From Ferribacterium limneticum (GTDB lineage Bacteria; Pseudomonadota; Gammaproteobacteria; Burkholderiales; Rhodocyclaceae): 64,000 nt of DNA. The DNA lies in contig NZ_CP075189.1 of assembly GCF_020510565.1 (NCBI RefSeq), positions 2,092,501 through 2,156,500 of the forward strand. The letters are read 5' to 3'. The position numbers and the translations under genes are program-made. Of this stretch, positions 31,967 through 52,586 are shown one piece after another (position 1 is the first letter of the stretch; each line of letters opens with the position of its first letter). Under the pieces are notes generated by a model, which saw nothing but the letters and a program-made list of their open reading frames with translations, searched no databases and was not told the DNA's origin.

Positions 31967-32059
31967 GGACACGTGGCCGAGTGGTCGAAGGCACACCCCT
32001 GCTAAGGGTGCATCCGGGCAAAACCTGGATCCAGGGTTCGAATCCCTGCGTGTCCGCCA
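31967..32059 (+). tRNA. tRNA-Ser (anticodon GCU), integration target
   Basis: The 93-nt class II tRNA has an encoded CCA. The acceptor GGACACG pairs with CGTGTCC, the anticodon arm CCCCTGCTAAGGGT carries GCU, there is a long variable arm, and the T-arm is AGGGTTCGAATCCCT. Its last 14 bases are repeated at 52573-52586, so the gene was rebuilt by the incoming element and stays functional. Confidence 0.97.
32046..32059 (+). other. attL core (tRNA-Ser 3' end)
   Basis: CTGCGTGTCCGCCA, the last 14 bases of tRNA-Ser(GCU), is identical to 52573-52586 at the other end of the element. Bases immediately outside the match differ. Confidence 0.85.
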
Positions 32060-32071
32060 GTAACAGCAATT

Positions 32072-32097
32072 AAGCCCCTGAATCTAGGGGCTTTTTT
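32072..32097 (+). terminator. Terminator just inside attL
   Basis: AAGCCCCT-GAATCT-AGGGGCTT followed by TTTT ends the tRNA-Ser transcript. The element apparently supplied it, because a different hairpin of the same type lies beyond attR. Confidence 0.85.
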
Positions 32098-32114
32098 GTT
32101 TCTTGAGCGCCGAT

Positions 32115-32138
32115 AGCCCACCGCTCAGCCCACCACTT
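32115..32138 (+). promoter_or_regulatory. Tandem 12-bp repeats, left arm (candidate integrase arm sites)
   Basis: AGCCCACCGCTC is followed directly by AGCCCACCACTT. The same 12-mer occurs in tandem and in the same orientation near the other end (52421-52444). Paired short direct repeats 55-80 bp inside the core are what tyrosine integrases bind through their N-terminal domain. Confidence 0.65.
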
Positions 32139-32445
32139 CGTTCGCCCTTGAGTGGTGTCCCCTTGCTATTTGCAAAAACTGCAAAGCACGTTAAGCTACG
32201 AACACTTTGTTATAGCAGCTTCCGGACACGGCCCGACCCTACGGCCCCGGATGTAAGTAGCAGGTCGAGAGAAGTAGGGCCCTGAACTTCAGGGAGCCTC
32301 CCGAGGTCCGCCACTAGTCACGCTGCAAGTGGAACCCGGAAAAAGGCTTGGAACCGTTGCGACCGTAGGCAAGTAGCCATCAGCGACCAGATTATCCTGG
32401 TCCGATACTTTCTACTCGGCCCAGGTCTCGCTACGAGGCCCAATA
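32139..32445. other. Non-coding left end of the element, rich in inverted repeats
   Basis: No gene is visible in this stretch. It contains TTTGCA-AAAAC-TGCAAA (32169-32185), a perfect CCCTGA-ACT-TCAGGG hairpin (32280-32294) and several GGCC-rich palindromic tracts between 32225 and 32305. A partial inverted copy of the arm repeat (AGTGGTG) lies at 32151. It probably holds the alpA promoter and operators; a structured RNA is also possible. Confidence 0.4.
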
Positions 32446-32763
32446 ATGAATCTCCCCGAAACTGGATTCCTGCGACTCGCGCAGATTCTCCCCCAACGCG
32501 AAGTGACCGAAGCCGAGGCTCAGCGCAACCGAGAAGCGGCCGCCGCTCTACGCGCAGAGGCGTTGGCAAAGGGCGTTAAGCCCAAGAACGACAATCGCCC
32601 ATGCAGGGCCCGCTCGGCAACCCCTGGTCTGATTCCCGGAAGTCCTACTTGGTGGTGGCGTGGTGTGCGGGAAGGGCGTTTTCCGCAGCCGGTGAAGCTC
32701 GGTCCACGTGTCACGGCTTGGCGTGTCGAGGATATTCGTGCCCTGATCGACAGCATCGCTTAA
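32446..32763 (+). CDS. AlpA-family regulator/excisionase with an inserted linker
   Basis: This 105-residue DNA-binding protein has a C-terminal half, RGVREGRFPQPVKLGPRVTA followed by WRVEDIRALIDSIA, that is the classic AlpA winged-helix wing. The N terminus GFLRLAQIL is the other half of the helix-turn-helix. Between them sit about 40 Ala/Glu/Arg-rich residues, and the usual recognition-helix sequence is changed to PGSPTWWW. AlpA proteins turn on integrase or act as excision factors in P4-like elements. The primase gene starts 11 bp later, so they are likely co-transcribed. Confidence 0.8.
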   Translation: MNLPETGFLRLAQILPQREVTEAEAQRNREAAAALRAEALAKGVKPKNDNRPCRARSATPGLIPGSPTWWWRGVREGRFPQPVKLGPRVTAWRVEDIRALIDSIA

Positions 32764-32774
32764 GAGGGCTCGAT

Positions 32775-35700
32775 ATGCGCACCCCCTCAGAAGTGAAAAA
32801 GGCCGCACCGGCTGGCACCGGCACGACCTCAGATACTGCGCACGTCGCAGATTCTACCGTAAGATCTTCTGCCGAGATAACAGTCCTTGAAACCGTCGGT
32901 GATCCGCTCACGACGTTCTTTCGAGGCGGCGAGAGGCACACCAATAACGTCTTCAATGGCGCGTCCAGGGTTCGAAAGTGTCTAGTTGAAAACCTTTCCG
33001 ACGTCGCCGAGTTGTTAGACGAACTCTATCGGGAGCCACTGTCATGCATCGTTCAAGGCGCTTACGTCGGCGACGGCAAAGCTAAACATACCGCCAACGG
33101 CCTGATTGAAGCCAGTAAAGCCAATTTCAAAGACTGCCTTGCGCGACTGCTGATTATTGAGGTTGGCTGGGATACCGAAGGGATCGACCCGGTCACTGCA
33201 CCCGAAGAGGCGATCTTGCAGTTCATCGATCGTGTCCTGCCTGAGCCGTTTCAGGATGCCAGTTTCGTTTGGCGCATGTGCCGTAGGAGCGAGCACACTG
33301 GGAAGAGGGCCTTGAAAGCTCACCTGGTGTTCTGGCTTGAACGCCCTATGAAGCTGTCCGAGCTGGATAAATGGCGTGAGTCTGTCGGCCTCGTAATCAA
33401 GCCAGCGTCGTGCAAGCCGGGGTATCCGATCTCCACAGCCGGCGCTTTGCTCGAGGACGGCACCGTCGAGCCCAGCCAGAACCAGTATGGATACTTTAGG
33501 GCTGGCAGCGAGTCCGTTGCTCTACTGCTGGTGGAGCGTCCCGCAAAGACTACTGAGGGGATCGATCGGCTCACCGTTCTCGAAACAACCGGTCCCCACC
33601 TGACCAAGACCTACAAGTCTGACGGCACCACCGAGGCTTACGGTGACGCAGCCAGCTTCAAGGTCAAGACCGTCGAGGTGGCCGACCTGCCCGCCCTGGC
33701 CACGCTGCTCGGCAAGCTGCACAAGAACAAGAAGCGTTGCCTGATTGCCGGAGCGCCGAAGGACGAGATGCAGCCCGGCAACGTCCAGGGATCGGTGACG
33801 CGGACCAATGCTAACTTCGACGACCAGCCGCTGCACTCCTTCGTGATCGACATCGACGGTTATCGGCCTGGCTTTGCCGACCCGATACTCGAGACCGAGC
33901 TGGCGGTGCTGGACTTCCTTGCCGAGAAGTTGCCGCCTTGCTTCCGGACGGCCAGTTTCTACTGGCACCTCTCGAGCTCGGCAGGCATGCCTGGCAAGGA
34001 GGGCATCCTCAAGTGTCACCTGTGGATGTGGTCGAAGACGGCCTACACGACTGCCCAGATGTACGAATGGGCCAAGGCTTACACGCCAGCTATCGACAAG
34101 GCTGTCTATCGTCGGGTCCAGATCCGCTACACGGCCGACCCCATCTTCGAGGAGGGCCGCACCGACCCGGTGCCGGTCCGCTCGGGCTGGCATCAAGGTG
34201 AGACCGACTATGTAGATCTGGTCATCGCCCAGGACACGCTGGCCCAGGCCCGGGAGCAGGGCAGCGGGGAGGGTGGATCAGATATGAAACTGGTCGATCC
34301 GTCCGAGAAGCCCGGCCTGGTTGGTCTCTACAACAAGGTGTTCACCGCCGAGGAGGTGCTGCTGAACCACCTCGAGGGCGAGTTCGAGGCCGTCTCCGAA
34401 CGCCGCTACACCTGGCACAACGGGGGCGGCACGCCGGAGGGTGTGTGGGTGCACGATGACGGCATGCACGTCGGCTCGAGCCACAACACCTGGCCGATCG
34501 ACGGCATTGCCAATCTGTGGGATCTGGTCCGCGTATTCAAGTTCGGCCATCTCGATGCGTCGGATGATGCCTTCGAGCAGGAGGATATCGATAGCCTGCC
34601 AATCAATGCCAAGCCGTCCAATCTGGCGATGCTGGAGTGGGCGGGGAAGTTGCCGGAGCTGCTGGAGGCGGCGCGCGAGGATAGCCTGCGTGAACATGAG
34701 GAGCGCGCCGCTGTTGTTGCTTCGCTGATCCAGGCTATTGCCGGCGCGGAAACGCCTCTCAAGCTGATGGCAGAGGTTGTGCCGGCCATTAAGGCTGCGA
34801 TGGTTGAAAATGGATTTCAGCCGCACGAGCAGGCAGAGCTGGAGAACTCTATTGCTAAGCGATTTACCGCACTTTCCCCGAGTAAAGCCAAGCTCCCAGC
34901 GAAGGCATTGCGTGAAATGCTGGCGCCAGAGGAAGACGAGACCGCCCGGGTCTTCGATCTGGAGATGGGGCTCGTCAAGCAGGTGCTCGATGACTGGTTT
35001 GCCTCCGGCAAGCACCTGACCTTCATTGGCGATAGTTGGTGGCTGTATCGAGGCGGCGTGTGGAAGCAGACGGATTCGAGCCTGGTTGAGAACAGGGTGC
35101 AACGGAGCATCCAGCGCATATTGGCCGGCGCAAGCAAAGAGGTAAGGGGCTTGACCAAACTGTTACGTGAGTCGGAACGTGGGGACTACCTGAACGCGCT
35201 GACAACCGCGGTCTGTGGAAACCTCCGAAGGTTCTGTGCGAAGGAGGACAAGGCCAGTGATCCGCTCAACTTGAAAGGGAGTTTTCCTGAGTCAGTTATC
35301 AACTGCCGAAATGGCGAACTCTGGTTCGACGAAGAGGGCAACGTGGAATTCGTTGACCATGACCCTGCCCACAAGCTGACTTTCCAGCTATCTACTAGCT
35401 ACGAGCCCACGGCAGACTGCCCAAAATTCAAAGCAGCCCTGGGTTTGGTTTTCAAAGAGTGCAAATCCCCTGCTGAGGTGAGCCGGCATTTCCTTGAGTT
35501 GATGGGGACCGTAATTCAGCCCCGTCGAATTGAAGCCATGTGGATGCTGCTGAAAGGTAGAGGCGAGAACGGGAAGACTTTCCTCGTCGATATCATCGAG
35601 GCAGTGATGGGTGGCGGTGCCTGCCTGAAAGGGAGCATCGCCGATGCTGCAGCAGGGAAGGACAACCATTTCACCTCGTCATTGGTCGGGAAACTTGCCT

Positions 35701-36446
35701 TCATTGATGACGACGTGAAGCAGGGGGTTCTGCTTCCTGACGACTGGTTGAAGAAGCTGTCGGAGGAGAAGGTTCTGACCGCCAATCCCAAGAACAGCTC
35801 GACGTTCCAATTCACCAGTCGGGCAACCATGATCATGCTGGCTAACCATTGGCCACGCACGGCAGACACGAGCCACGGTATGACACGGCGAGCACACGTG
35901 ATCGAATTCAAGCACCAGCTCACCGAGGGCGAGAAAGATCCCAATCTGAAGCAGTACATCATGCGCAATGAACTGCCTGGTGTGCTGAATCTTCTGGTCG
36001 AAGCCTGGCAGCGCGTATTGCAGCGTGGCCGCTACCAGCGTCCGGATGAAGTGACCAGAGCTGCAGATACGTGGATGCGCTCGGCGAACACCACGGGTAA
36101 CTTTTTCCGGCAGATGTTGGTCAGTGATCCCGCCGCACCGGCAATCAAACTCACCATCATTGAGCAGTTTTACCGGTCCTGGATGGCAGAGCATGAGCCG
36201 AGGGCATCCGCACTTGGAAAGCAGGCATTGATCAGCGCCTTGCAGAATGCAGGGTTCAACCTCTTTACTCAGCACAATCAGCTCGTCGTCCGTGGAGTCT
36301 CGATCAACCCCTTGGCAGGTGACGACGCGCCGGCCGACTACGTTGCCGATGAGGTAGCGGAGAGAAAAGCTGAGCGGGAAGCGATGGATCTTTTCAACAG
36401 GACTTTTGGTCGAGCGGATACGGTTGAGGAGGACTTTAAGGACTGA
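32775..36446 (+). CDS. Primase-helicase with duplicated N-terminal primase-like domain and SF3 helicase
   Basis: This 1223-residue replication protein starts at the ATG 11 bp past alpA. Residues ~35-255 and ~266-480 are two copies of one domain: both begin TVLET, both contain a Q/D-F-x-T-ASF-x-W block, K-x-HL-x-W and a closing D/E-G-T-x-P segment. Copy 2 keeps the acidic pair in FVIDIDGY (D359, D361) and KCHLWMW; copy 1 has LLIIEVGWD instead, so it has lost the acidic pair. The C-terminal half is a P4-alpha/D5 superfamily 3 helicase: Walker A GRGENGKT at ~928 and Walker B LAFIDDDV at ~975. It should prime and unwind the element's own origin. Confidence 0.88.
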   Translation: MRTPSEVKKAAPAGTGTTSDTAHVADSTVRSSAEITVLETVGDPLTTFFRGGERHTNNVFNGASRVRKCLVENLSDVAELLDELYREPLSCIVQGAYVGDGKAKHTANGLIEASKANFKDCLARLLIIEVGWDTEGIDPVTAPEEAILQFIDRVLPEPFQDASFVWRMCRRSEHTGKRALKAHLVFWLERPMKLSELDKWRESVGLVIKPASCKPGYPISTAGALLEDGTVEPSQNQYGYFRAGSESVALLLVERPAKTTEGIDRLTVLETTGPHLTKTYKSDGTTEAYGDAASFKVKTVEVADLPALATLLGKLHKNKKRCLIAGAPKDEMQPGNVQGSVTRTNANFDDQPLHSFVIDIDGYRPGFADPILETELAVLDFLAEKLPPCFRTASFYWHLSSSAGMPGKEGILKCHLWMWSKTAYTTAQMYEWAKAYTPAIDKAVYRRVQIRYTADPIFEEGRTDPVPVRSGWHQGETDYVDLVIAQDTLAQAREQGSGEGGSDMKLVDPSEKPGLVGLYNKVFTAEEVLLNHLEGEFEAVSERRYTWHNGGGTPEGVWVHDDGMHVGSSHNTWPIDGIANLWDLVRVFKFGHLDASDDAFEQEDIDSLPINAKPSNLAMLEWAGKLPELLEAAREDSLREHEERAAVVASLIQAIAGAETPLKLMAEVVPAIKAAMVENGFQPHEQAELENSIAKRFTALSPSKAKLPAKALREMLAPEEDETARVFDLEMGLVKQVLDDWFASGKHLTFIGDSWWLYRGGVWKQTDSSLVENRVQRSIQRILAGASKEVRGLTKLLRESERGDYLNALTTAVCGNLRRFCAKEDKASDPLNLKGSFPESVINCRNGELWFDEEGNVEFVDHDPAHKLTFQLSTSYEPTADCPKFKAALGLVFKECKSPAEVSRHFLELMGTVIQPRRIEAMWMLLKGRGENGKTFLVDIIEAVMGGGACLKGSIADAAAGKDNHFTSSLVGKLAFIDDDVKQGVLLPDDWLKKLSEEKVLTANPKNSSTFQFTSRATMIMLANHWPRTADTSHGMTRRAHVIEFKHQLTEGEKDPNLKQYIMRNELPGVLNLLVEAWQRVLQRGRYQRPDEVTRAADTWMRSANTTGNFFRQMLVSDPAAPAIKLTIIEQFYRSWMAEHEPRASALGKQALISALQNAGFNLFTQHNQLVVRGVSINPLAGDDAPADYVADEVAERKAEREAMDLFNRTFGRADTVEEDFKD

Positions 36447-36644: not shown

Positions 36645-36830
36645 TTATTCCCCCGCTTTGTGGTGCTTAGGTTCGAAGTAGAGGCAAGGCTGGCCAGAAG
36701 AGGCAATTACATCGCGTTCCGGAAGACGACGGCTCTTGAACCCCATAGCCCGGCAGCCATAGGGAAAGTTCGGATCGAAAGTAACGTGGTAGTGCTCGCA
36801 CCGGTTGCAGCGCGGCCTGGGATCAGGCAT
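36645..36830 (-). CDS. Small Cys-rich conserved protein (61 residues)
   Basis: A compact protein with [20 protein letters not shown], then [20 protein letters not shown] and PCLYFEP: four cysteines (two CxxC-like, two further on) that could bind one zinc. Proteins of this pattern are frequent in proteobacterial genomes, with no established function that I can name with confidence. It overlaps the IHF-beta-like gene by 8 bp and is likely co-transcribed with it. Confidence 0.7.
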
Positions 36831-37101
36831 CGACCAGTTCGCGAAGTTCTTTGCCGGCCTTGAAGTGAGGCGTCCATTTGGCCGGCACGCTGACCTTCTC
36901 GCCGGTCTTCGGATTCCTAGCGGTGCGAGGCGGCCGATGGTTCAAGGAAAAACTTCCGAAGCCCCGGATCTCAACGCGGCCGCCGGATTTCAAGGCACCG
37001 CCAACGGCGCCGAGGATCTCGGCTACGGCGACTTCAGCGTCTTGTCGGGCGAGGGTGGGGAAGCGTTGCGCCAGCTGTGCGATGAGTTCGGATCGAGTCA
37101 T
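36823..37101 (-). CDS. IHF-beta/HU-like DNA-bending protein of the element
   Basis: This 92-residue DNABII protein starts [20 protein letters not shown], with [20 protein letters not shown] and [20 protein letters not shown], the IHF-beta pattern. A slightly longer start at 37110 is possible. The intercalating proline loop (ARNPKTG) is intact. Carrying its own IHF-like subunit would help the element bend DNA at its att sites or origin independently of, or together with, the host IHF-alpha encoded at 20162. Confidence 0.9.
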
Positions 37102-37128
37102 GCACGGCATTTTAGCGAAAACAACGAC

Positions 37129-37719
37129 TTACTGGCGGCGTCTCAACGCAAGAAACAGCCCTGTGCCAATGAGTAGCAGCGACCCTGGCTCCGGAAGGGG
37201 GACGGCAGCGCTGGTATCAACCCAGACGCGAAGCACCAGCTCGTTATCGTCATCATCGAAGCGATATGACCAGGCATCGTCGAGATGCAGTACCCAGTCG
37301 TTGTCGCCAATTATCTCGATAACGCTTCCTCCCCGGCCAAGGCTGTTGTCGGTGTCGGTGAATACAGCCTGATCTGCGGTGGAGGGCGAGGTCGCTAGGT
37401 TGCTGCTGAACGCGAACAAATTGCCCATATAGTTGGACAGGTTGTAAAAATCCAGTGAGCTCCCGGCCCAGTAATAGCCCTTATTCACCACTGGTGGCGG
37501 AACAACGGCGCGGTTGTAGTCGATAACGAAAACCACATTTCGGTCAGCGAGCGTGGAATCCGCACTCGGTGTGCCGATACCGAACTCCTGCACGGATGGG
37601 CCAGATTCTCCCCGAAGGTACTCAAACATCAAGTCGCCCGACTTGGTCGTGGTTATCAGCGATGAGTGGGCAAAATTAGATGCCAGTAACAGTGCAAAAG
37701 TGGCCAGGCAACGGCGCAT
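37129..37719 (-). CDS. PEP-CTERM protein carried by the element (1)
   Basis: This 196-residue secreted protein has the signal peptide MRRCLATFALLLASNFAHS. The domain in between has DDD-rich and YxxG segments (SYRFDDDDNELVLRVWVDTS) of unknown function. The C-terminal sorting signal is LPEPGSLLLIGTGLFLALRR followed by RQ. A GGAGA ribosome-binding site precedes the ATG. It depends on a host exosortase, as none is on the element. It sits at the end of the minus-strand trio with the IHF-beta-like and Cys-rich genes but probably has its own promoter. Confidence 0.82.
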   Translation of the reverse strand: MRRCLATFALLLASNFAHSSLITTTKSGDLMFEYLRGESGPSVQEFGIGTPSADSTLADRNVVFVIDYNRAVVPPPVVNKGYYWAGSSLDFYNLSNYMGNLFAFSSNLATSPSTADQAVFTDTDNSLGRGGSVIEIIGDNDWVLHLDDAWSYRFDDDDNELVLRVWVDTSAAVPLPEPGSLLLIGTGLFLALRRRQ

Positions 37720-37874: not shown

Positions 37875-38072
37875 ATGACCAATTCAAATCCCGAGTATTT
37901 AAGCCTCCGCCAGGCAGCCGCGGCATATCCCGGGCTGCTTTGTGAAAACACCATGCGTTGCTGGGTAAAGCGGGGCAGCCACGGCTTCAATCGCCTGATT
38001 ACTCGGGCTGGCCGGAAGGTTCGAATCCGTCGTGATCGCCTGGATATTTTCGTCGGCGAACGACGTGCCTGA
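37875..38072 (+). CDS. Small helix-turn-helix (excisionase-like) protein
   Basis: This 65-residue basic protein has a MerR/excisionase-like fold: YLSLRQAAAAYPGLLCENTM, RCWVKRGSHGFNRLITRAGR, then KVRIRRDRLDIFV as the wing. It is the first gene of the plus-strand phage-like operon (37875-48544) and starts 155 bp from the divergent PEP-CTERM gene, a good position for an operon regulator. Confidence 0.72.
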   Translation: MTNSNPEYLSLRQAAAAYPGLLCENTMRCWVKRGSHGFNRLITRAGRKVRIRRDRLDIFVGERRA

Positions 38073-38080
38073 GTTCAGCA

Positions 38081-38947
38081 ATGGCGACCAACCCCCAACG
38101 TCTGGCAGAAGTCGACCGCCTCGTCACAGCGCTGCTCGAGGAGCTACCTGGGCTGTGGGTCTCCAGCGAGGAAATCGCCGAGTGCGTCGATATCTCGCTG
38201 AAGGTCGCCTCTCGGTGCGGGATACGACTTGCACGGGCTGGCGCGCTCGTTCAGCGAACCGTGTTCTGGACGTCTGCCAGGTCTCGGAGGCGCGACCGAT
38301 ACGAGTTTTGCTACGAACCAAACGGTGGATTGCCCTGGCGGCAGCGGCTACCTCAATGGCTGGAGCCGGTGGTCCACCCCATCAACCCATTTCACTGCCG
38401 GCGAATCCACGGCCGTGCTTCACAAAATATCTCTGAGGAGGCTGCACCCATGACTGATCTCGAATACCGCGAGCTACCACGCCACATCCGCGAGTACTTC
38501 AGCCTTATTTCTGACACCGAATTCGACGAGCACCCCGATGTCCTTGACGCTCGCCAGAACATCTCTGAGGCCGAGGCACGGCACCAGGCAACCATCGATC
38601 GCGTCTCGACATATCGCCTGCGCCTTCAGGATCTTGAGGAGCAACGTGGGAAGGCGCTGCACGAAATTCGCAGCATGACCGAAAAGCGCACTCGGCTGCT
38701 GGCTGATCTCCTGCTTCAGGGGCAATCGGTTGATCTCAATCCCGACAAGGATCTGCAAGCCCAGCTCGAGCGACACCAGCTGTTCGCCGATGCGGTCGAA
38801 CTAGCCAAGCCGACGATCGAGCAGCGTATTAAGGAGGCTGCACGAGCGGTGAGCACGTCCGGTCCGAGCTGCACCTCGGCGGAAGAGCATCTCCGCGGCG
38901 TGCTCGACCGCCTGAAGCTCGAAGAAGCCCACCGCAGGGCTGCTTAA
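38081..38947 (+). CDS. Winged-helix plus coiled-coil protein, possibly two genes in one frame
   Basis: The open frame has 288 codons. Residues 1-65 look like a winged helix (LVTALLEELPGLWVSSEEIA, ISLKVASRCGIRLARAGALV). Residues ~124-288 are a charged helical protein (MTDLEYRELPRHIREYFSLI, then long Glu/Arg/Gln-rich helices). A strong internal site, GAGGAGG, lies 8 nt before the ATG at 38450, so a separate 165-residue product is likely even if the long form is also made. No family recognised. The gene is 8 bp after the HTH gene. Confidence 0.65.
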   Translation: MATNPQRLAEVDRLVTALLEELPGLWVSSEEIAECVDISLKVASRCGIRLARAGALVQRTVFWTSARSRRRDRYEFCYEPNGGLPWRQRLPQWLEPVVHPINPFHCRRIHGRASQNISEEAAPMTDLEYRELPRHIREYFSLISDTEFDEHPDVLDARQNISEAEARHQATIDRVSTYRLRLQDLEEQRGKALHEIRSMTEKRTRLLADLLLQGQSVDLNPDKDLQAQLERHQLFADAVELAKPTIEQRIKEAARAVSTSGPSCTSAEEHLRGVLDRLKLEEAHRRAA

Positions 38948-38959
38948 AAGGCTGAAAAC

Positions 38960-39211
38960 GTGACTGCTGAACGTTCTCAAGCTATTGAAGGGGAACACCT
39001 TCCAGCGAGGGGTACCCCGGCAAGGCGTATCCCCCTGAAGACTTTGCGCGATGTTCGGCGTGAGATGAGCAGGGTTTACTGTGAATCTCGGCGCGGAACG
39101 CTCGACGTGGCTGATGGAAGCCGATTGATTTACATGCTGTCGCAAGTCGGCCGGGTGATCGCTGATCACGAGCTAGAGGCTCGGATCGCTGCTCTGGAGT
39201 CTCGTCAGTGA
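38960..39211 (+). CDS. Small phage-type protein (83 residues)
   Basis: The protein contains PLKTLRDVRREMSRVYCESR, RGTLDVADGSRLIYMLSQVG and a C-terminal helix ending ARIAALESRQ. The pattern LxxVRREMxRVYREAR..GxxxxxxAxxLxYxLxxIG resembles small proteins next to terminase genes in phages, but this is a resemblance only and no terminase follows. It overlaps the next gene by GTGA. Confidence 0.6.
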   Translation: MTAERSQAIEGEHLPARGTPARRIPLKTLRDVRREMSRVYCESRRGTLDVADGSRLIYMLSQVGRVIADHELEARIAALESRQ

Positions 39212-39687: not shown

Positions 39688-39701
39688 CCGAGGACAACAT
39701 C

Positions 39702-44400: not shown

Positions 44401-47400
44401 GACCGACGGCCCAAGCGATTACGCCAGCCACGGTTTCCGTGTTCGCAACTCCGGTGTGCGCGAGGAGGTGCGAGCCAAATATCAGGCGCTGCTCCAGACC
44501 ATGTTCACGAAGGCAGAGAAGTACGTCGAGGACACCGCCAAGGCGGAGAAATTTGTAGGCAGCAGCCGGGATTCTCTGGTTCGCAGCCTGACTGGCATGC
44601 GCAAGCAATTGGAGAGTGTTCCGGACTGGGTGAAGCGCAACAACAAGCCGGCCACCGCCGCGCAGCTCGCCGAGTTCGACCGCCTGGCCGCGGATATTAT
44701 CGACGGCAAAGCCTTCGAGCTCGAGGTCAGATCCACCGAGCCGAAGCGTGGCCAGCGGTTCGGCAACATCCGCCTCTCGAATGACGTGCTTGATGCACTG
44801 AGCAACCTGTTCAAGTCCGTGCGCGGACGCAGTGGCATGAATGCCGAGAAGACCGGTGTTGTCGATGGCATCCGCAGCGATATGCGCCGCTACGCTGACC
44901 GGGTGAAGATGCTTGAGGATGCACGCAGCTCCAACGAGAAGATCAAGCAGGTGCCCACCAGCTATGCCATGGACGCCAAGCGGATCGACCAAGGCAGCGC
45001 GACCGACTACTGGACCACTGAGCATGAGATGGCCGCCCGGGCGTTTTCTGCCTACGTTGAGGACAAGATCAGCGAGCAGGGCGGCCGCTCAGACTTCCTG
45101 TCCTATGGCAGCAACAACAGCATGCCTCAGTATCGGATTTTCAATGTCCGGCCGTTCCCGGAGGGTGCGGAGCGAGCAGCTATCAACCAAGGCTTCGACC
45201 AGCTTTTCGAAACGCTGCAGACCCGCGTGACTGAGAGGGGCGTGCAGCTCTTCAACCAGGTGAGAGGATCGGCATCGAGTTTCGATGGGCAGCTCTTTGG
45301 CGCCATCACATTCGGGGCAAGCCTCGACAACGTGTTGATCGCTATCAGCCAGCGCTCGGCAACACCGTTCAATCGGGAGTTGGCCACCTTGCTGCTGGAC
45401 CAGAAGCTCGAAACGACCATCAAGACCGCAGCGCATGATGGGGAGCACGCCGGCGGCTACAACCCGAAGGCCAACTTGATCACGCTTATGCAGGAGGAAG
45501 AGGCGGAGGCAACGATTCTCCATGAGCTGATGCACGCCGCGACCTACAAGGCGCTGTCGAATAAATCGGTGGCCTCGGCTGCCATGCGTGCCCTCTTGCG
45601 CGAGGTTCGTGGCCATCTGGGCCTGGATAGCCATTACGGCCTGAGCACGGTCCATGAGTTCGTTGCTGAGGCCTTCAGCAATCCGGAGTTTCAGTCTGCC
45701 TTGAAGTCGATCCAGGTAAAGCCGAGTGGCATCAAGGGGAAAATCAAGGATGCCTGGGGACGGTTTGTCAGTAACGTTCGGATGATCCTTGGCCTGCCGC
45801 GCGAGCAGGAGACGGCGCTGGGCAAGGCGCTCGAGCTCGGTGTCCGGTTGATGAAGGAGAACCAGAGCGCCCCTCTGCGGAATTACCTTGGCGAGATCGT
45901 CTTCAACAAGGGGAAGGCGGCAGTTGAAGATCGTCTCACCGCCCGTGACTGGATCAACCACCAATTTGCCAATCAGCGGAGCTGGGCGCTCGGCGCGCTC
46001 ACCCGTGACCAACTGGCCGACATCTACGGTGGCCGCATGCCAGAGGTCAAAGAGTTCGATCGGGTCGTGCAGGCCATGGATCAGGCTCGCAATACCATCG
46101 CCGAGCAGGCCGATACGATTATCGAACGGTGGCGCAAGCTACCAATTAAGACTGCAGACACCCTGGCCGGCATCATGCACAGTGCCACGCTCGAGCAGTT
46201 CGACCCGGACATCAAGACCCGGGACGATGTAGCCACCCCTGAGCAGTCGATCCTCCTGAAGGACTGGGCTGCCTTGCCGGATGAGGCCAAGCAGCTTTAT
46301 CGCGACGTTCGCGACCAGTACGCGGGCACCCTGGCCAAGCTGCGCAACGGCCTGAGCAAGAGGGCAGCGCGCGCCGGCAGCGCTGGCCAGCGTATTGCCG
46401 CCGAGATCCGGCTGCAGTTCGACAAGTACTTGGCCGAAGGGCCTTACTTCCCTCTCGCCCGCTTCGGTGATTTCATCCTGATCGCCGACAAATTTGGGCA
46501 GCGCATCGTCGAGGCCTTCGAGAGTTCTGCAGCACGGGAGAAGCGCGCCCGTGGTCTGCGGGTCCAGGGCTGGACTACCAAGCTGACCGCCAAGAAAGCT
46601 TACAGTGCCGCCAAAGATGGTCCGGCCGGTGAGTTCGTCGGTGATGTCCTGAAGTTGGTCGATGGCCTGGAAATCGAGACCAAGGAGAAGGTTGGCCTGA
46701 TGGATTCACTCAACCAGTTGGCGATCAGCGCCCTGCCGGACCAGTCGTATCGCCGCCACTTCACCCATCGCAAGGGCACGGCTGGCTTCAGCCAGGACGC
46801 CATGCGCGCTTTCGCCAGCTCGATGCAACACGTTGGCCACCACGTTGCCCGTGTGCTCCATGGCGACGAGCTCACGCTGCTCCTGGATGGCATGAACAAA
46901 CGTATTTCCGAGACCGCCGGCGACGTCGATACCACCGTACAGCAGCAGGTGGCCAACGAGCTGGCCAAGCGCCTGGATCTGATGATGAACCCGAACACCC
47001 ACCCGGTGACGGCACTCGCTGGCCAGGTCGGTTTTGTGATGTCGCTAGGCGGCAGTGTTGCCTCGGGGCTGACCAACCTCAGCCAGACACCGCTGGTCAC
47101 TTTCCCGTTCCTTGGTGCCAAGTTCGGTTTTGGCCAGGCCTCTGCAGCGCTGACCAAAGCGAGCAAGGACTATTTTGGCGGGAAGTGGGACAAATGGTCC
47201 GGCTTCGTGCTGAAGGACAACAAGGCACTGAGCGCAGACGAGCGGCGTGCGTTGCAGCAGCTCGAGGACGCAGGCCTGGTGAACCTGACACAGGCCCACG
47301 ATCTGGCCGGCACGGCGAACACCGACAGCTCCTCGAGCGCCAAGTCCTTCGCCATTAACCGCGCCATGAAGATCGTAGGCTGGACCTTCCATCTTCCCGA

Positions 47401-48544
47401 GGTTTTCAATCGCCAGGTCTCGGCTCTGGCTGCCTATCGCCTGGCACGCGACAAAGGACAGGGCCATGAAGCTGGTGTCGAGGTGGCACGCCAGGCATTG
47501 ATCCGCAGCCACTTCGATTACTCCGGCTCAAATCGTTCGCGCTGGATGGCCGGCAACTTCACTCGCGTGGTGACCATGTTCAAGCAGTACAGCCAGAACA
47601 TGACTTACCTGCTTTGGCGCAATGCCTACCAGTCGTTGAAAGGTGAATCCCCGGAGGTGAAACGCGAGGCCCGCCGGATGCTGCTCGGCCTGGCAACGAT
47701 GCACTTCGCCGCGGCCGGAGCGCTGGGCATGCCGCTCGGCGTGTTCGGCGTCACGCCGCTGCTCGGCCTGCTAGCAATGGGCATGGGCTCAGAAGATGAG
47801 CCGTGGGACTGGCAAGTCGAGTTCCGCAACATGTTGGCCGACCTGTTCGGCAAGCAGGCGGGTGAGGCCATCGCCCATGGTCCGCTGCGGGCGCTCACCG
47901 GTGTCGACTTCGCTTCTCGTGTCGGGCTGGGCGATCTGTGGGTCCGTGCGCCGCAGGCTGACAAGGAGGGACGCGATGCTGTCGAGGCCTGGATGCTGAC
48001 CTTGCTGGGACCGGTGGCTGGCTACGCGGGGAATATCGGCACGGCAGCCAAGGCCTTCGATGAAGGCAAGGTCGGCCGGGGGTTCGAGGCCATGCTGCCC
48101 AAGTTCATCGCTGCGCCGATCAAGGCTGCTCGATATGAGACGGATGGCGTGAAGAGCTGGAGCGGTGACGACCTCGGCGTGCCTCTTGATGGGGGTGACA
48201 TCTTCGCCACGGCGATGGGCTTCCAACCGGCTCAACTGGCTGAGATGTACGAGGGCAGGGCGGCTATCAAGGGTAGGGAGGGCAAGCTGACCGCCAGGCG
48301 CGAGGAGATCGCCAATATGTTCGTGGCCGCAGCTCTGGCCGGCGATCGGGATATGCAGGTCGAAGCGATGGGGGCGGCGCAGAGGTTCAGTCAGGCCAAT
48401 CCGAGCATTAGGCTGACGGCGGATTCGCTACATCGGAGCCTGCAGGCCAAGGTGCGGAGTCAGGCGATGATCAAGGATGGGGTCTTTTTGCAGAAGCGCC
48501 GCCAGGATCTGAGGGCAGAGGGGCGGTTTGCGAACGTGGAATGA
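41486..48544 (+). CDS. Giant polyvalent protein with PPase-like, two metallopeptidase-like and PLxRFG regions
   Basis: This 2352-residue protein has, in order: a hydrophobic Gly/Ala-rich stretch (~95-160, membrane-active?); an inorganic-pyrophosphatase-like domain (~540-680; HIKVGALDIAIENPVGSTRA, DHYGYMKRTEGADGDQVDVY); a large-polyvalent-protein domain with HEWFH at 940-944 in LAHEWFHAADHYFGRQ; a second zinc-protease-like HELMH at 1346-1350; the PLARFG signature at 1656-1661; and C-terminal hydrophobic segments (~2065-2100). Such proteins are ejected or injected with phage or plasmid DNA. No capsid gene is nearby. Confidence 0.8.
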   Translation: MMGAFDDLIPQAIGDNAFADLEPGAKLRGEKPADGGFVASAKQSAGSLILGAGQFGADFLPGVSQDNVLKRYGQEVIDANPTAVHSLSDIADQPLTAVKEATGNAAGSMAGIVGSRLLGQGITAAAPLTGPAAPVVAAVGQGISLLGPYAAAALPSFGSIRENQGGDTPEDKAIAALGAGTVGLIENKFGPQEWALSAMTKGGRDQLAEKFAAKTLTGSIAKGVGTGATVEGAEELVQNPIEQLASYQDPRTPENIADTAFGATMGAIGGGVVGGPMAGLSHRPQPVTVPRQDGTGSVALDPANGVISAAAAEHVSRTQTTEDLFGDLAPAAPIASALDPLVGVPETGDPFADLVSVDQAASTGPLQEFASQVEAVDLSEAQRLVQQSRDAGSDHLAVIEHPAGGGFIAAPREWLNADQVQATRALQPSNVLLKPEQISIPNGTAPWGWEGFQSGDRVTTKAGTTGTLHFDDTRTVAYVTPDKLNGGAINPDAGKTTAKAKGAFSVTPAEVGKSVDHAASQANTAPSEAQITAGNYQKGHIKVGALDIAIENPVGSTRAGLGWQTTMRDHYGYMKRTEGADGDQVDVYVKAGTPTNHTGPVFVIDQFDPATGKFDEHKAMVGYRFQGAAIRAYDDHFSDGSGPKRRHGVVRMTAEQFNDWAKNGNTQAPAAAPRGQELKSTPAAIQDFGEKVGGARKDIAQPLGPKPKAVAPAVSEPGWRRRFSAVQNMLRSEPTWNLFDTKTSKPVRGAEFKSEQEAKDAIPMIAVALKHRVTSTGEGFEIMRDVTDRKRIKVVDQVFPSRDAAMKYMAEHAAEIVETKTSFREELFAKPEKVMRQGSERRTGKATAEDFTKTFGFRGVEFGLWNNQDERQEVMNHAYDGLLDLADVLDVPPKALSLNGDLALAFGARGQGLSGAVAHYERSYGVINLTKMQGAGALAHEWFHAADHYFGRQDGKAKSFKEQNKRGDLVYPTDGPSDYASHGFRVRNSGVREEVRAKYQALLQTMFTKAEKYVEDTAKAEKFVGSSRDSLVRSLTGMRKQLESVPDWVKRNNKPATAAQLAEFDRLAADIIDGKAFELEVRSTEPKRGQRFGNIRLSNDVLDALSNLFKSVRGRSGMNAEKTGVVDGIRSDMRRYADRVKMLEDARSSNEKIKQVPTSYAMDAKRIDQGSATDYWTTEHEMAARAFSAYVEDKISEQGGRSDFLSYGSNNSMPQYRIFNVRPFPEGAERAAINQGFDQLFETLQTRVTERGVQLFNQVRGSASSFDGQLFGAITFGASLDNVLIAISQRSATPFNRELATLLLDQKLETTIKTAAHDGEHAGGYNPKANLITLMQEEEAEATILHELMHAATYKALSNKSVASAAMRALLREVRGHLGLDSHYGLSTVHEFVAEAFSNPEFQSALKSIQVKPSGIKGKIKDAWGRFVSNVRMILGLPREQETALGKALELGVRLMKENQSAPLRNYLGEIVFNKGKAAVEDRLTARDWINHQFANQRSWALGALTRDQLADIYGGRMPEVKEFDRVVQAMDQARNTIAEQADTIIERWRKLPIKTADTLAGIMHSATLEQFDPDIKTRDDVATPEQSILLKDWAALPDEAKQLYRDVRDQYAGTLAKLRNGLSKRAARAGSAGQRIAAEIRLQFDKYLAEGPYFPLARFGDFILIADKFGQRIVEAFESSAAREKRARGLRVQGWTTKLTAKKAYSAAKDGPAGEFVGDVLKLVDGLEIETKEKVGLMDSLNQLAISALPDQSYRRHFTHRKGTAGFSQDAMRAFASSMQHVGHHVARVLHGDELTLLLDGMNKRISETAGDVDTTVQQQVANELAKRLDLMMNPNTHPVTALAGQVGFVMSLGGSVASGLTNLSQTPLVTFPFLGAKFGFGQASAALTKASKDYFGGKWDKWSGFVLKDNKALSADERRALQQLEDAGLVNLTQAHDLAGTANTDSSSSAKSFAINRAMKIVGWTFHLPEVFNRQVSALAAYRLARDKGQGHEAGVEVARQALIRSHFDYSGSNRSRWMAGNFTRVVTMFKQYSQNMTYLLWRNAYQSLKGESPEVKREARRMLLGLATMHFAAAGALGMPLGVFGVTPLLGLLAMGMGSEDEPWDWQVEFRNMLADLFGKQAGEAIAHGPLRALTGVDFASRVGLGDLWVRAPQADKEGRDAVEAWMLTLLGPVAGYAGNIGTAAKAFDEGKVGRGFEAMLPKFIAAPIKAARYETDGVKSWSGDDLGVPLDGGDIFATAMGFQPAQLAEMYEGRAAIKGREGKLTARREEIANMFVAAALAGDRDMQVEAMGAAQRFSQANPSIRLTADSLHRSLQAKVRSQAMIKDGVFLQKRRQDLRAEGRFANVE

Positions 48545-48571: not shown

Positions 48572-49267
48572 TTACCGTTGATGCCGTCGGCGTGCAGCCA
48601 GCACCAAAAGCCCGAGCGCAGCCAGCAGGGGCGTACCGGGCTCAGGAACCGCGAACAACGTCACGTTGTCGATGCCGATCTTCTCGTTGCCGTAGGCGCT
48701 GTAACTGCCACGGATGAACAGGCCGTCGAGAGAGTCCAAAACATCGACCATCTGCTGTTTTGTGGGCTGTAGGGCACTTCCTTCAATAACCCAAGAAGCC
48801 GTCAATCCATGCTCTTGGCTAGTGCCGGTCTCGTAAAGTGGCACAACATGATTTGTCCAGATGTTGTTGATGTTCATATCGGTGTAAGCCAGTCGCAACC
48901 CGGCTCCGCTGAGAATCAGCTCAGGGTAGCCACCCAGCAATACATTTTCATAGCCCACGAAGCGCTTAATGTCGTACGAAAGAAAACTTCCGTATGCCTC
49001 TGCAGCGTTCGCCAAGTAGCTAGTGGGCGCTACGAAATAGAATGGCTCGCTGATGAAGTCAGCGGAGCCAACACCTTTGGAGCGGCCAAAGAAATATCCA
49101 CCGGGGGCCCCATCTGCAGGCTCATATCCTGAGGCCAGGGTCAGCCCTGTCGTTGTCCAGCCCTCGGTTCCAGAGTTGAAATCTGAGGAGGCAACCTGAA
49201 CCACCCCTCCGAATGCGAGCGCTGGCGCAGCGAGCAGAGAACAGACGAGGATCTGAAGGGATTTCAA
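48572..49267 (-). CDS. PEP-CTERM protein carried by the element (2)
   Basis: This 231-residue secreted protein starts at TTG with a GGAG site 5 nt upstream. The signal peptide is about residues 1-22 (KSLQILVCSLLAAPALAFGG). The mature part begins VVQVASSDFNSGTEGWTTTG, a choice-of-anchor-like beta domain, and includes DGLFIRGSYSAYGNEKIGID. The C terminus AVPEPGTPLLAALGLLVLAA, then RRRHQR, is a full PEP-CTERM signal. It is unrelated in its middle region to the other element-borne PEP-CTERM protein, so the element holds two separate surface-protein genes. Confidence 0.83.
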   Translation of the reverse strand: MKSLQILVCSLLAAPALAFGGVVQVASSDFNSGTEGWTTTGLTLASGYEPADGAPGGYFFGRSKGVGSADFISEPFYFVAPTSYLANAAEAYGSFLSYDIKRFVGYENVLLGGYPELILSGAGLRLAYTDMNINNIWTNHVVPLYETGTSQEHGLTASWVIEGSALQPTKQQMVDVLDSLDGLFIRGSYSAYGNEKIGIDNVTLFAVPEPGTPLLAALGLLVLAARRRHQR

Positions 49268-49367: not shown

Positions 49368-50048
49368 ATGTGCGGACGCTACGCCCTCAACACCACAGCC
49401 ACTGAGCTGATCGAGCACTTCCAGCTACTCTCCTGCCCAGAGTTTGGCCTGCGCTACAACATCGCCCCGGCCAGCCAGATCCCGGTCATCCGCTTCAAGC
49501 CTGACACTGGCCGCGTCGGCCAATTGGTGAAATGGGGCTTGGTGCCATCCTGGGCTAAAGACCCGAGCATCGGCGCCAAACTGAACAACGCCCGGGGCGA
49601 GACCGTCTCCGAGAAACCATCCTTCAAGACCAGCTTTGCCAGGCACCGCTGCCTGATTCCGGCCAGTGGGTTCTATGAGTGGCAGACGGTGGCTGGCAAG
49701 AAGCGGCCGTACTACATTCACCCGACCGATGGAATGTTTGCCTTCGCCGGTCTGCTCGCCGCCTGGAAGGCACCTGGCGGCGAGACGCTGGTCACAACCT
49801 GCATCATCACCACAACACCCAACGAGGTCATGGTGCCGATCCATGACCGCATGCCGGTGATCCTGGAGGCGGAGGAGTACGACGCCTGGCTAGATCCTGG
49901 CAACCAGGACATCGAGGCGCTGAAGCTGTTGCTTAGACCGTGCAGCGCCGAAGGCATGACTGCTTATCCTGTCAGTTCTGCGATAAATAGTGGCAGAGTC
50001 GAAGGGCCAGAATGTGTTCAACATGTCGAAACGGGAGATGGGTCATGA
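49368..50048 (+). CDS. SRAP-domain protein (HMCES/YedK family)
   Basis: This 226-residue protein begins MCGRYALNTT; Cys2 forms the thiazolidine crosslink with abasic sites in single-stranded DNA. LRYNIAPASQIPVI, WGLVPSWAKDPSIGAKLNNA (catalytic Asn region), CLIPASGFYEWQ (Glu) and PIHDRMPVIL (His) are all present, so it should be active. On a replicating element it may protect single-stranded replication intermediates. Its stop overlaps the next gene (ATGA). Confidence 0.93.
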   Translation: MCGRYALNTTATELIEHFQLLSCPEFGLRYNIAPASQIPVIRFKPDTGRVGQLVKWGLVPSWAKDPSIGAKLNNARGETVSEKPSFKTSFARHRCLIPASGFYEWQTVAGKKRPYYIHPTDGMFAFAGLLAAWKAPGGETLVTTCIITTTPNEVMVPIHDRMPVILEAEEYDAWLDPGNQDIEALKLLLRPCSAEGMTAYPVSSAINSGRVEGPECVQHVETGDGS

Positions 50049-50368
50049 GCTTGGATCGTAGGTCGGGGCTGGACCGACGGCGCCGGGACATCGGTCCACC
50101 TCGTGGCCAGGTCGAGCGTCGCCGAGGCAATCGCGTAGGTGAGGGCGGGTATGACGATGATGCTGCGCTGAAGATTGCTATGAAGGCCGTTCAGCTTTAC
50201 GCAGAGAGCCACCCCAGGCCCGGTCACGTCACCCAAGAGCAGGCCGCCGAGATGCTTGGTATCTCCCGGGCAACGGTCAGCCGAATGGTTAAGTTCGGAA
50301 CTCTCAAGCTGAATATGGTTGGCCGGATTCCAATGAGCGACATCGACAAGGCGCTGCTGGTAGATTGA
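50045..50368 (+). CDS. Helix-turn-helix protein with basic N terminus, coupled to SRAP
   Basis: This 107-residue protein has an Arg-rich first 35 residues (SLDRRSGLDRRRRDIGPPRG) and a C-terminal excisionase-type HTH: VTQEQAAEMLGISRATVSRM, VKFGTLKLNMVGRIPMSDID. The ATG overlaps the SRAP stop. It may regulate the SRAP pair or act at the right end of the element. No family name can be given with confidence. Confidence 0.72.
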   Translation: MSLDRRSGLDRRRRDIGPPRGQVERRRGNRVGEGGYDDDAALKIAMKAVQLYAESHPRPGHVTQEQAAEMLGISRATVSRMVKFGTLKLNMVGRIPMSDIDKALLVD

Positions 50369-51006: not shown

Positions 51007-51140
51007 GGTAGCGATCCTTCCATGGATAGGTTTAGGTATTCGCCGCCGCTTCCGCCGTGCTCCTCGGAACTATTTCGAGGCTTCCCCAGCCCCGGCTGCT
51101 TACCGGTGAAATCTCACGATAGACACCGGTAAAGCGCACT

Positions 51141-52409
51141 CTACAGAAGCCCCTCCTGTGGGGTGGGCAGTGAACCTGGTTTTGCTGCCATATACGCGGC
51201 CCAATCCTCCATCAGCGGGCGCCGCCGTTCAATCATTGTTCCCCGGGCGTAGGCTGCTTCGACCTTGTCCGGGAGGCTATGGGCGAGGGCGTGCTCCACT
51301 ACTTCACGTGGATAGTGGCTTACCTCCGCAGCCCAGTCGCGAAACGTTGAACGGAAACCATGCGGGACGATCTGGTCGCCGGATTTCGGATCGATCCATT
51401 CCGGCGGGGAGCGGTCTTCCGTCTCGTTGAATCGGCGAATAATGGCCGTCAAGGTCATGTCGCTAAGGGGCTTCTTGTCGCGGTCACCAGGGAAAAGGTA
51501 TTCGTTGCCGGCGATCTTAGGTAGTTCCTTCAGCATGGCAATGGCTGGTTCTGAGAGTGGTACCCAGTGCTCACGCTTTGCCTTCATTCTCTCGGCCGGG
51601 ATGGTCCAGAGCTTGCCGTTCATGTCGATTTCATCCCAGGTAGCCAAGCGTACCTCTCCAGATCGGGCTGCGGTAAGAATAGCGAATTCAAGCGCGCGAG
51701 CGCCAGAGCCCGCGGCGGCGCGCAACTTGACCATGAACTCTGCCGCTCGAGCATAGGGCAGGGCGGGGTGGTGGCGCACATTTTTCAGTTTGGTGGGCTT
51801 GGGTAACATGGCTTCTAAGTGGCCGCGCCACAGAGCTGGATTCTCTCCTTGTCGCAACTTCATGGCTTTCGCGTAGGTAAGCACTAGTTCAATCCGACCG
51901 CGTAGACGCGTTGCCGTTTCGGTCTTCGTGGTCCAGATTGGCGAGAGAATTTTCAGGATGTCTTCAGTAACGACTTCGCCGGCGGGCTTGTCGCCGATGA
52001 TAGGCCCAGCATACGTCTCAAGAGTGCTGCTCCATTGAGCCGCGTGTTTCGCGTTCTTCCATTCGGCTTTGTGGTTGGCAATGTATTCTGTTGCAACCTC
52101 CCGGAAGGTGGTGGCGTTGGCTTCGGATTGCTTCTTGGCTGCCTCGGCTGTTGCAGCCTTCTGCTTGCGGTCCTCGATTGGGTCTATGCCGGAGCGTACA
52201 GCCGTAGCAAGCTGACTAGCCTCGCCCCTTGCATCGGTGAGCGACTTGTCGGCCAGCGTGCCGATGCCCATTTCGCGGCGCTTGCCGTTCAACTGAAAAC
52301 GGAAGATCCAGGACTTCGCCCCACTAGTCTGGACGCGCAAGTACAGGCCGCCACCATCCGCGTGCATGCCTTCCTTCGCGGACTTGATCTCAAAAACCGT
52401 AAGCGCCAT
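51141..52409 (-). CDS. int: P4-type tyrosine integrase (DUF4102 N terminus)
   Basis: This 422-residue site-specific recombinase has an N-terminal arm-binding domain with KEGMHADGGGLYLRVQTSGA and KRREMGIGTLADKSLTDARG. The catalytic set is Arg249 (ILTAARSGEVRLATWDE), His350 and Arg353 (VPHGFRSTFRDWA), His377 (EHALAHSLPDK) and Tyr387 (AAYARG), so it is complete. Its start codon lies 11 bp inside the right-hand repeats and 160 bp from attR. The gene reads inward from attR. Confidence 0.96.
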   Translation of the reverse strand: MALTVFEIKSAKEGMHADGGGLYLRVQTSGAKSWIFRFQLNGKRREMGIGTLADKSLTDARGEASQLATAVRSGIDPIEDRKQKAATAEAAKKQSEANATTFREVATEYIANHKAEWKNAKHAAQWSSTLETYAGPIIGDKPAGEVVTEDILKILSPIWTTKTETATRLRGRIELVLTYAKAMKLRQGENPALWRGHLEAMLPKPTKLKNVRHHPALPYARAAEFMVKLRAAAGSGARALEFAILTAARSGEVRLATWDEIDMNGKLWTIPAERMKAKREHWVPLSEPAIAMLKELPKIAGNEYLFPGDRDKKPLSDMTLTAIIRRFNETEDRSPPEWIDPKSGDQIVPHGFRSTFRDWAAEVSHYPREVVEHALAHSLPDKVEAAYARGTMIERRRPLMEDWAAYMAAKPGSLPTPQEGLL

Positions 52410-52420
52410 CGTTTTCTCCT

Positions 52421-52444
52421 AGCCCACCACTTAGCCCACCACCT
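52421..52444 (+). promoter_or_regulatory. Tandem 12-bp repeats, right arm (candidate integrase arm sites)
   Basis: AGCCCACCACTT is followed directly by AGCCCACCACCT, the same unit and orientation as at 32115-32138. They overlap the integrase promoter region (start codon at 52409), so integrase binding here could also repress its own gene. Confidence 0.65.
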
Positions 52445-52493
52445 ATGCTGAGTATTTTAACAGATGGTATGATCCTTGGTGGTACGAGAATTT

Positions 52494-52506
52494 TTTCAAC
52501 TCATTG
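52494..52506 (+). promoter_or_regulatory. Possible IHF site near attR
   Basis: TTTCAACTCATTG matches the IHF core WATCAA-N4-TTR with one mismatch. It sits in the AT-rich stretch between the right arm repeats and the attR core, where bending is needed for an integrase complex. Confidence 0.35.
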
Positions 52507-52572
52507 AAAATAATTAAAAAATAAAACATTATTGGTACAGTGATGCACGTCGTAATATCGTATTTATACGGA

Positions 52573-52586
52573 CTGCGTGTCCGCCA
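52573..52586 (+). other. attR core (copy of tRNA-Ser 3' end)
   Basis: CTGCGTGTCCGCCA is identical to the last 14 bases of tRNA-Ser at 32046-32059. Upstream bases do not form a tRNA, so this is the displaced original 3' end. Confidence 0.85.

Follow-up and report, generated by a model that had tools for sequence, protein, structure and literature searches.

A probable phage satellite at a tRNA-Ser gene of Ferribacterium limneticum with genes resembling a podophage ejection module

The DNA analyzed here, referred to as the window, comprises 64,000 nucleotides of the Ferribacterium limneticum genome (assembly GCF_020510565.1, contig NZ_CP075189.1, positions 2,092,501 to 2,156,500; G000:C1:2092501-2156500 among the genomes compared, a single 4.15-Mb contig) and contains a 20.5-kb element lying between 14-bp att repeats at a tRNA-Ser gene. 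This element is probably an integrated phage satellite that would supply its own ejected proteins, here termed E1 (595 aa) and E2 (2352 aa), to the virions of a helper phage; helper dependence, excision, packaging, and loading are the parts of this reading that we infer from sequence. A preliminary description of the same DNA had proposed a satellite bringing its own injected proteins and regarded it as a new variation. The first proposal is borne out insofar as the element belongs to a recurrent type lacking recognizable virion genes other than E1 and E2, whose homologues stand in the ejection position of podophages, with the dependence on a helper and the three subsequent steps as the conditional part. 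The claim of novelty has to be narrowed, as EcCIMP1, an Escherichia coli element mobilized by phage Kapi1, already carries an ejection module, albeit a different one of the P22 type.

Pfam and PHROG scans of the element's open reading frames (ORFs) revealed no recognizable family of large terminase subunit (TerL), portal, coat, tail, or lysis protein, in agreement with the preliminary description, which had seen no terminase, portal, capsid, tail, or lysis gene. Nor did these scans find capsid genes of the element's own, the trait of capsid-forming phage-inducible chromosomal islands. Searches of the operon at 37875-48544 with profile hidden Markov models and a predicted fold of its 288-aa protein, checks of a kind that had been proposed beforehand, uncovered no hidden capsid, portal, or TerL gene. 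The candidates for a hidden coat protein, portal, or TerL were rejected, since the 288-aa protein is predicted to fold as a winged helix with a long helical hairpin and homologues of E1 occupy the ejection position in phages. Relatives of the 288-aa protein are present in other elements of the same type, and the best matches in its fold search, weak overall, were transcription and replication proteins.

The plus-strand operon had been characterized as phage-like and as ending in a 2352-residue polyvalent protein, a description that holds: it encodes, in order, a 65-aa helix-turn-helix (HTH) protein, proteins of 288, 83, and 159 aa, E1, and E2, with a 4-bp overlap between the last two genes, and E2 carries InPase, LPD1, and LPD39 domains followed by a DarB-like C-terminal region. 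The InPase region also draws the PHROG labels endolysin, minor head protein, and virion structural protein. Six viral records contain proteins whose N termini share 56-73% identity with the N-terminal region of E2 (∼230 residues), and a P22-type portal (phrog_156) was found in two of the five records searched, one of the negatives being a 63-kb record. Of the three viral proteins long enough for comparison beyond this region, one shows no further similarity to E2, and the other two match at 24-36% only. Among 399 genomes of the order, a profile of the E2 N terminus matched three, and only this element strongly.

The setting of the homologues in phage genomes is what points to an ejection role. 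In G150, a 60.5-kb viral record, and in G149, a 26.7-kb fragment, the gene immediately preceding that of a giant protein (2435 aa in the former; more than 1309 aa and cut by the contig end in the latter) encodes an E1 homologue, and in a prophage of G046, a genome of the same genus, a 442-aa E1-like protein is followed by two small ORFs and then a 3504-aa protein. In all three, the gene one or two places before E1 encodes a protein matching phrog_8040 (head closure; E 3e-46 in G149, 1e-35 in G150, and 4e-47 in G046) and phrog_26502 (virion structural). The head modules include a small terminase subunit (TerS; phrog_1206), TerL (phrog_979), and a P22-type portal (phrog_156, E 1.2e-161; PF16510, E 4.4e-102) in G149, and TerS (phrog_51), TerL (phrog_2), and a P22-type portal (E 7.2e-162) in G046, with a weaker portal match in G150 (phrog_1216, E 1.6e-17). 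An E2 relative also follows a "stabilization protein" by a few genes in Vibrio phage 1.211.A, and E1 had no match in cultured phages at E 0.01. We take the place after the head-closure genes to be that of the ejection proteins in P22; judged by gene order, the E1 and E2 homologues stand where podophages with a head module of the P22 type have their ejection proteins. The podophages represented by G149, G150, G485, and Vibrio phage 1.211.A thus resemble the element in having E1 and/or E2 homologues, and G150 in having a homologue of its primase, but unlike the element they carry virion genes (a portal in G149, G485, and, weakly, G150; TerL in G149; the stabilization protein in 1.211.A).

The combination of genes found in the element recurs within the genus. 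An E1 profile matched eight of 76 genus genomes (weakly in G040, 3e-4), and seven of these hold nine elements, each with an integrase, a replication gene, E1, and a protein of 684-2500 aa in the E2 position. A match in G058 (7.1e-4) had no homologous module, disappeared from a later profile search, and was dropped; across the order, 16 of 399 genomes matched E1, and the 13 outside the genus, all weak (E 2.6e-6 or worse), were attributed to composition. The preliminary description had suggested looking for the same operon with the same integrase and att elsewhere, and the search succeeded for the operon type, whereas integrases and sites differ. In six of the nine, repeats of 14-20 bp agree with the element ends, the sites being tRNA-Ser, tRNA-Arg (two), the 3' ends of dnaB and glnA (host genes named by eye), and one other; no convincing att repeats were found for the G060a, G022, and G034 elements. 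For the eight elements besides this one, local BLAST against a set of labelled phage proteins gave no virion genes. A PHROG scan of their 57 otherwise unlabelled ORFs of at least 120 aa (E 1e-4; 5 ORFs lying across fetched pieces or unmapped were left out) hit 45 families, and none of the 25 that were listed is of the head, tail, portal, or TerL kind. The closest relative, in G039, shares the primase (45% over 650 aa), E2 (61%), E1, the 159-aa protein, and a coil protein with the tRNA-Ser element, and has a different integrase (30%) and site, the dnaB 3' end.

G060 contains two elements (contigs C35 and C19) with different replication and ejection genes. One of them, G060b, occupies the same tRNA-Arg(cct) site as the G044 element (L085:7653-7727 and L044:1125-1199, respectively); the integrases of this pair are 91% identical (312 aa compared) and the E2 proteins 78%, against 47% over 219 aa for E1, a contrast that points to uneven change or an exchange of modules.

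A sister lineage extends beyond the genus, into several genera of betaproteobacteria. An alignment scan with E2 proteins (five elements and one phage) yielded 24 loci in named genomes, of which 14 are of satellite type, with best-segment identities of 48-100% and four already counted above; their titles include Rugosibacter, Thiobacillus, Propionivibrio, Azospira, Ottowia, Rhodoferax, Sulfuritalea, Curvibacter, and others, and most are metagenome-assembled genomes, several of them fragments. Local BLAST revealed no TerL or portal in these 14 loci and a TerS in several. The corresponding scan of viral contigs gave 54 loci. Among the 50 viral records searched, the P22-type portal was present in 15: none of the 20 labelled satellites (L136-L152, L155, L156, and L158), 10 of the 14 records of at least 55 kb, and five of the 16 others. 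Clustering of the proteins from 36 elements or fragments, several incomplete and one (L136) a copy of G034, found E2 in 32 (with four of other types), E1 in 30, an integrase in 19, a RepO-like protein in 18, TerS in 17 (one representative being phrog_51), DnaB in 15, and a helicase in seven. None of the conserved clusters was labelled head or tail, and ten scanned proteins, mostly cluster representatives, belonged to replication or E2-type families or matched nothing. In a tree of E2 (70 rows, built by a quick method with long-branch warnings), 28 of the 30 satellite-labelled rows grouped in a single branch (SH-aLRT 98) next to portal-bearing phages, and L155 and L156, both short satellite-labelled fragments, lay outside it.

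The boundaries of the element were as the preliminary description had given them, a 14-bp att duplication, which is supported by the exact right-hand repeat and by an empty site. In G063, of the same genus (locus L192), the match to the right flank begins at the fourth base after tRNA-Ser and continues at 91% over ∼1.5 kb of the window to the right of 52586, up to the end of the fetched locus. As the G063 tRNA-Ser runs straight into the right flank of the window, 32060-52586 is an insertion. The left flank was matched in 69 of 76 genus genomes. On the given strand, the att 14-mer is exact in 10 of 30 flank loci including the window's own copy, and G063 alone of the remaining nine continues at once into the right flank; in L199, L202, and L203 right-flank likeness starts only 73-206 bp past the tRNA, and the remaining loci show different or scarcely similar sequence there. 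This is one clear empty site, not a frequency. By eye, a terminator-like sequence follows both att copies.

EcCIMP1 is the nearest precedent. The accessible text of its report (PMC11773190) describes a 19,963-bp phage-inducible chromosomal island (PICI) of E. coli at tRNA-Thr that is induced and transferred by Kapi1, a P22 relative; its authors first took it for a defective prophage, found no structural, lysis, or terminase genes, and noted that genes 017-019 resemble DNA transfer proteins and families of head morphogenesis, for which they considered packaging. In our scans the genes after the EcCIMP1 primase matched phrog_651 (head morphogenesis), phrog_598 (DNA ejection), phrog_917/2534 (released on infection), and phrog_770 (DNA transfer). 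The phrog_651, 598, 917, and 770 proteins correspond to P22 gp14, gp7, gp20, and gp16. At least 80% of the 9.5-kb EcCIMP1 block is held by 64 of 5,426 E. coli genomes. Both elements are of ∼20 kb at a tRNA site, with short direct repeats, an integrase, AlpA-type regulators, and a primase followed by ejection genes without other virion genes, apart from the phrog_651 protein of EcCIMP1; they differ in that the latter has the four P22-type proteins and the former E1 and a polyvalent E2. When EcCIMP1 ORFs of at least 100 aa were compared with the labelled element set (blastp, E 1e-3), the integrase alone matched (30% to that of the window, 42% to that of G039), and the two ejection modules are therefore not detectably related. 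EcCIMP1 thus shows that a satellite carrying an ejection module is able to move. A full-text literature search, with incomplete journal coverage, recognized no paper that treats satellites carrying ejection proteins as a class, and EcCIMP1 is the sole close case; in PMC6893505 the phrase "ejection proteins" occurs in a reference title only.

The same precedent raises an unlikely alternative, namely that the ejection genes of such a satellite act inside the carrier cell, in superinfection exclusion or by interfering with the ejection proteins of the helper. EcCIMP1 confers superinfection immunity against Kapi1 by a route given as unknown in the accessible text (PMC11773190), and, since ejection proteins could come from the helper in trans, own copies need a reason. 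Against this, E2 is long, multidomain, and under purifying selection, and its homologues lie in virion gene clusters; furthermore, Iyer et al. infer virion packaging of polyvalent proteins bearing InPase, in a paper whose accessible part does not contain the word satellite (PMC5512222).

It is also improbable that the element is a prophage remnant left by decay or trimming, with a ∼60-kb podophage losing its middle and keeping by chance the integrase, primase, and last late genes. An origin by deletion is conceivable, given that G150 has primase and E1 homologues alongside its giant protein. Against this, one gene set recurs in nine elements across seven genus genomes, whose integrases and sites differ, and in a sister lineage across several genera; the long frames are mostly intact, the att ends are preserved with an empty site in a relative, and nine gene pairs had a ratio of nonsynonymous to synonymous substitution rates (dN/dS) of 0.08-0.33 on columns of at least 40% local identity, a restriction that favours low values. 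As the principal explanation for the family, decay was rejected on recurrence, the E2 tree, the empty site, and dN/dS. Mobilization by conjugation, with the polyvalent protein exported along with the DNA strand as is thought for plasmids, where relatives with polyvalent domains also occur (309 records), is very improbable, since the scanned ORFs of the element include no relaxase or type IV secretion family, E1 and E2 match phage gene order, and the best plasmid match, a non-mobilizable record of 60.7 kb, carries integrase, S24 peptidase, and antirepressor genes.

Several points weigh against the satellite reading preferred here. The ejection role is assigned from gene order and homology, and the AlphaFold2 model of the E2 N terminus was useless (mean pLDDT 37.7) and not used. 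The clade test is partly circular, as the satellite labels derive from a missing portal or local BLAST, and the portal profile misses some phages (four of the 14 records of at least 55 kb, and 11 shorter unclassed records without a match). The E2 of the Ottowia locus L106 is split in two frames. A TerS is doubtful in the tRNA-Ser element (the 83-aa protein, by a weak alignment) and was not recognized in three of the nine elements (G052a, G044, and G060b). Finally, the P22-type portal profile, which matches three of 76 genus genomes, found nothing in the element's own genome or in any of the eight genus genomes that the E1 profile matched. This last absence is not decisive, because just two of 21 strains carrying EcCIMP1 have a Kapi1-like prophage (PMC11773190, accessible text).

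Among the relatives, the G034 element encodes a TerS of the same family as that of G149 (phrog_1206, E 9.9e-54), the G060a element one of the Terminase_2 family (E 3e-29), and the G022 and G039 elements DUF5681 proteins; a 244-aa protein of G052b matches TerS weakly (E 0.019). The 83-aa protein of the tRNA-Ser element aligns weakly (25%) to a 134-aa protein of G039 near the same place in the sister elements. The G022 and G060a proteins (L087:4126-4560 and L032:10987-11652) have a common C-terminal half, 58% identical, and different N termini (DUF5681 versus Terminase_2), which suggests that DNA-binding halves have been swapped on one C terminus. TerL was also searched for in whole genomes: phrog_2, run against seven genomes or records, had a single match in G149, weak matches in G060 and G044 that lay outside the element, and none in G000, G039, G052, or G150, and phrog_979, run against ten, matched G149 and G039 only. 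These searches are not exhaustive, as both profiles miss G150. The G039 match (G039:C1:2598504-2599901, E 1.8e-173) lies ∼390 kb from the element and may belong to a separate prophage, a possible helper.

In the proposed cycle, growth of a podophage helper in the cell would lead the element to excise and replicate, and its DNA would be packaged in helper heads. Relatives with their own TerS would do so with the TerL and portal of the helper, the packaging switch of the tRNA-Ser element being uncertain. E1 and E2 would be made and loaded into these heads, E2 perhaps via its conserved N-terminal region, and would be ejected with the satellite DNA, where they may help it to cross the envelope and act as anti-restriction or host-modifying proteins, as the DarB-like C terminus, InPase, and LPD domains suggest. 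Loading into helper particles would be the most economical use of the pair. Three copies of the element amount to 61.6 kb, loosely fitting the lengths of viral records G485 (60.6 kb), G487 (58.8 kb), and G488 (63.4 kb), a prediction rather than evidence.

A wider proposal, which we regard as plausible but short of probable, is that widespread podophage satellites hijack helper virions at the ejected proteins, a third point of attack after head size and packaging choice, by swapping or adding their own E1 and E2. The near-constant N-terminal region shared with phage proteins would serve as a loading tag, particles made by the helper would inject anti-restriction and host-modifying domains of the satellite's choosing, and EcCIMP1 and the betaproteobacterial elements would have arrived at this with unrelated ejection modules. 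In the accessible literature, satellites have so far been sorted by their effect on head size, packaging, or replication. That elements keep only the ejection module of a phage suggests that control over the injected content is worth several kilobases to a satellite, and raises the question of whether one can choose the protein contents of another virus's particle. If true, this would explain why some islands, EcCIMP1 among them, resemble defective prophages and would provide a searchable signature (an integrase, a replication gene, and ejection genes, with no TerL or portal).

The element has the general features of phage satellites, its own integrase and replication genes without a full virion gene set. 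With PICIs and Staphylococcus aureus pathogenicity islands (SaPIs) it shares an integrase, an AlpA-type (HTH_17) regulator, and a primase at an att site, and in its relatives, not clearly in itself, a TerS without a recognized TerL. It differs in having the integrase and regulator at its right end and the primase at its left, as opposed to the integrase-alpA-primase row of PICIs, in its ejection proteins, which are absent from the accessible parts of PICI and SaPI descriptions, and in lacking a recognized capsid-remodelling gene. The phage-inducible chromosomal minimalist islands (PICMIs) likewise have an integrase, AlpA, and a primase and no capsid-remodelling genes, but are described in the accessible text of PMC10803314 as lying beside fis, without packaging genes and leaving virion composition unaffected, in contrast to the tRNA-Ser site and large ejection module seen here. 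P4-like satellites are characterized by an Arm_DNA-bind_3 integrase, an AlpA-type regulator, and a primase-helicase, all of which the element resembles, and by a delta gene. Scans of its ORFs with Pfam and PHROG gave no match to psu, sid, or delta genes (Psu and Sid named after PMC11389934).

Features of the tRNA-Ser element, with positions counted along the window
Feature	Position	Strand	Basis
tRNA-Ser(gct), integration target	31967..32059	+	ARAGORN
att core left, 14 bp, tRNA-Ser 3' end	32046..32059	+	exact repeat; empty site in G063
Primase-helicase, D5_N + DUF5906	32601..36446	+	Pfam, PHROG primase; homologue in viral record G150
HU/IHF-family DNA-binding protein	36823..37110	-	PF00216, E 2.1e-29
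PEP-CTERM protein, cargo	37129..37719	-	PF07589
65-aa HTH protein, first operon gene	37875..38072	+	HTH_17, 19.8 bits, under cutoff 27
288-aa protein, predicted winged helix + long helical hairpin	38081..38947	+	AlphaFold2, mean pLDDT 82.8, pTM 0.47
83-aa protein	38960..39211	+	weak likeness to C terminus of DUF5681/TerS-like proteins
159-aa protein	39208..39687	+	44% identical to same-place gene in G039
E1, 595-aa putative ejection-module protein	39702..41489	+	homologues directly upstream of giant protein in G149, G150
E2, 2352-aa putative polyvalent ejection-module protein	41486..48544	+	Pfam, PHROG
E2 N-terminal region, residues ∼35-262	41588..42271	+	56-73% identity to six viral records
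E2 InPase domain	43067..43471	+	PF18823, E 1.9e-40
E2 LPD1 domain	44987..45226	+	PF18796, E 9.4e-21
E2 LPD39 domain	45962..46399	+	PF18858, E 1.4e-24
E2 DarB-like C-terminal region	46403..48505	+	phrog_10089, E 7.8e-167
Laminin_B/PEP-CTERM protein, cargo	48572..49267	-	family match
SRAP-family protein	49368..50048	+	PF02586, E 5.9e-74
HTH_17 (AlpA/excisionase-type) regulator	50012..50368	+	PF12728, 30.0 bits, cutoff 27
Tyrosine integrase, beside right att	51141..52409	-	Arm_DNA-bind_3, Phage_int_M, Phage_integrase
att core right, 14 bp	52573..52586	+	exact repeat

The replication and integration genes were largely as first described. The complete P4-type integrase and the primase-helicase were both upheld by their domain and family matches, although the true start of the latter may be downstream of its first ATG. 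The AlpA assignment stands for a regulator of the HTH_17 family and not for strict AlpA membership, and this regulator also gave one weak TerS match through its HTH (E 0.0025, PHROG). The possible origin of replication was not confirmed, with weak repeats only. A PADLOC search of eight proteins for defence cargo gave no match. The preliminary description had overlooked the HU-family gene, both PEP-CTERM genes, and the SRAP gene. Two secreted-type PEP-CTERM proteins as apparent cargo are unusual for a phage-derived element. The SRAP-family protein is presumably of the YedK/HMCES type, and SRAP genes in the G044 and G034 elements make it a possibly recurrent satellite gene. A Sir2-like gene lies near the left end of the G039 element (L029:5665-6576, minus strand; assigned by eye, without a PADLOC match), and one scanned ORF of the eight other elements matches phrog_2162 (Sir2). 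The G034 element contains a tRNA-Pro(tgg) gene (L083:8313-8389, plus strand) adjoining its small terminase gene.

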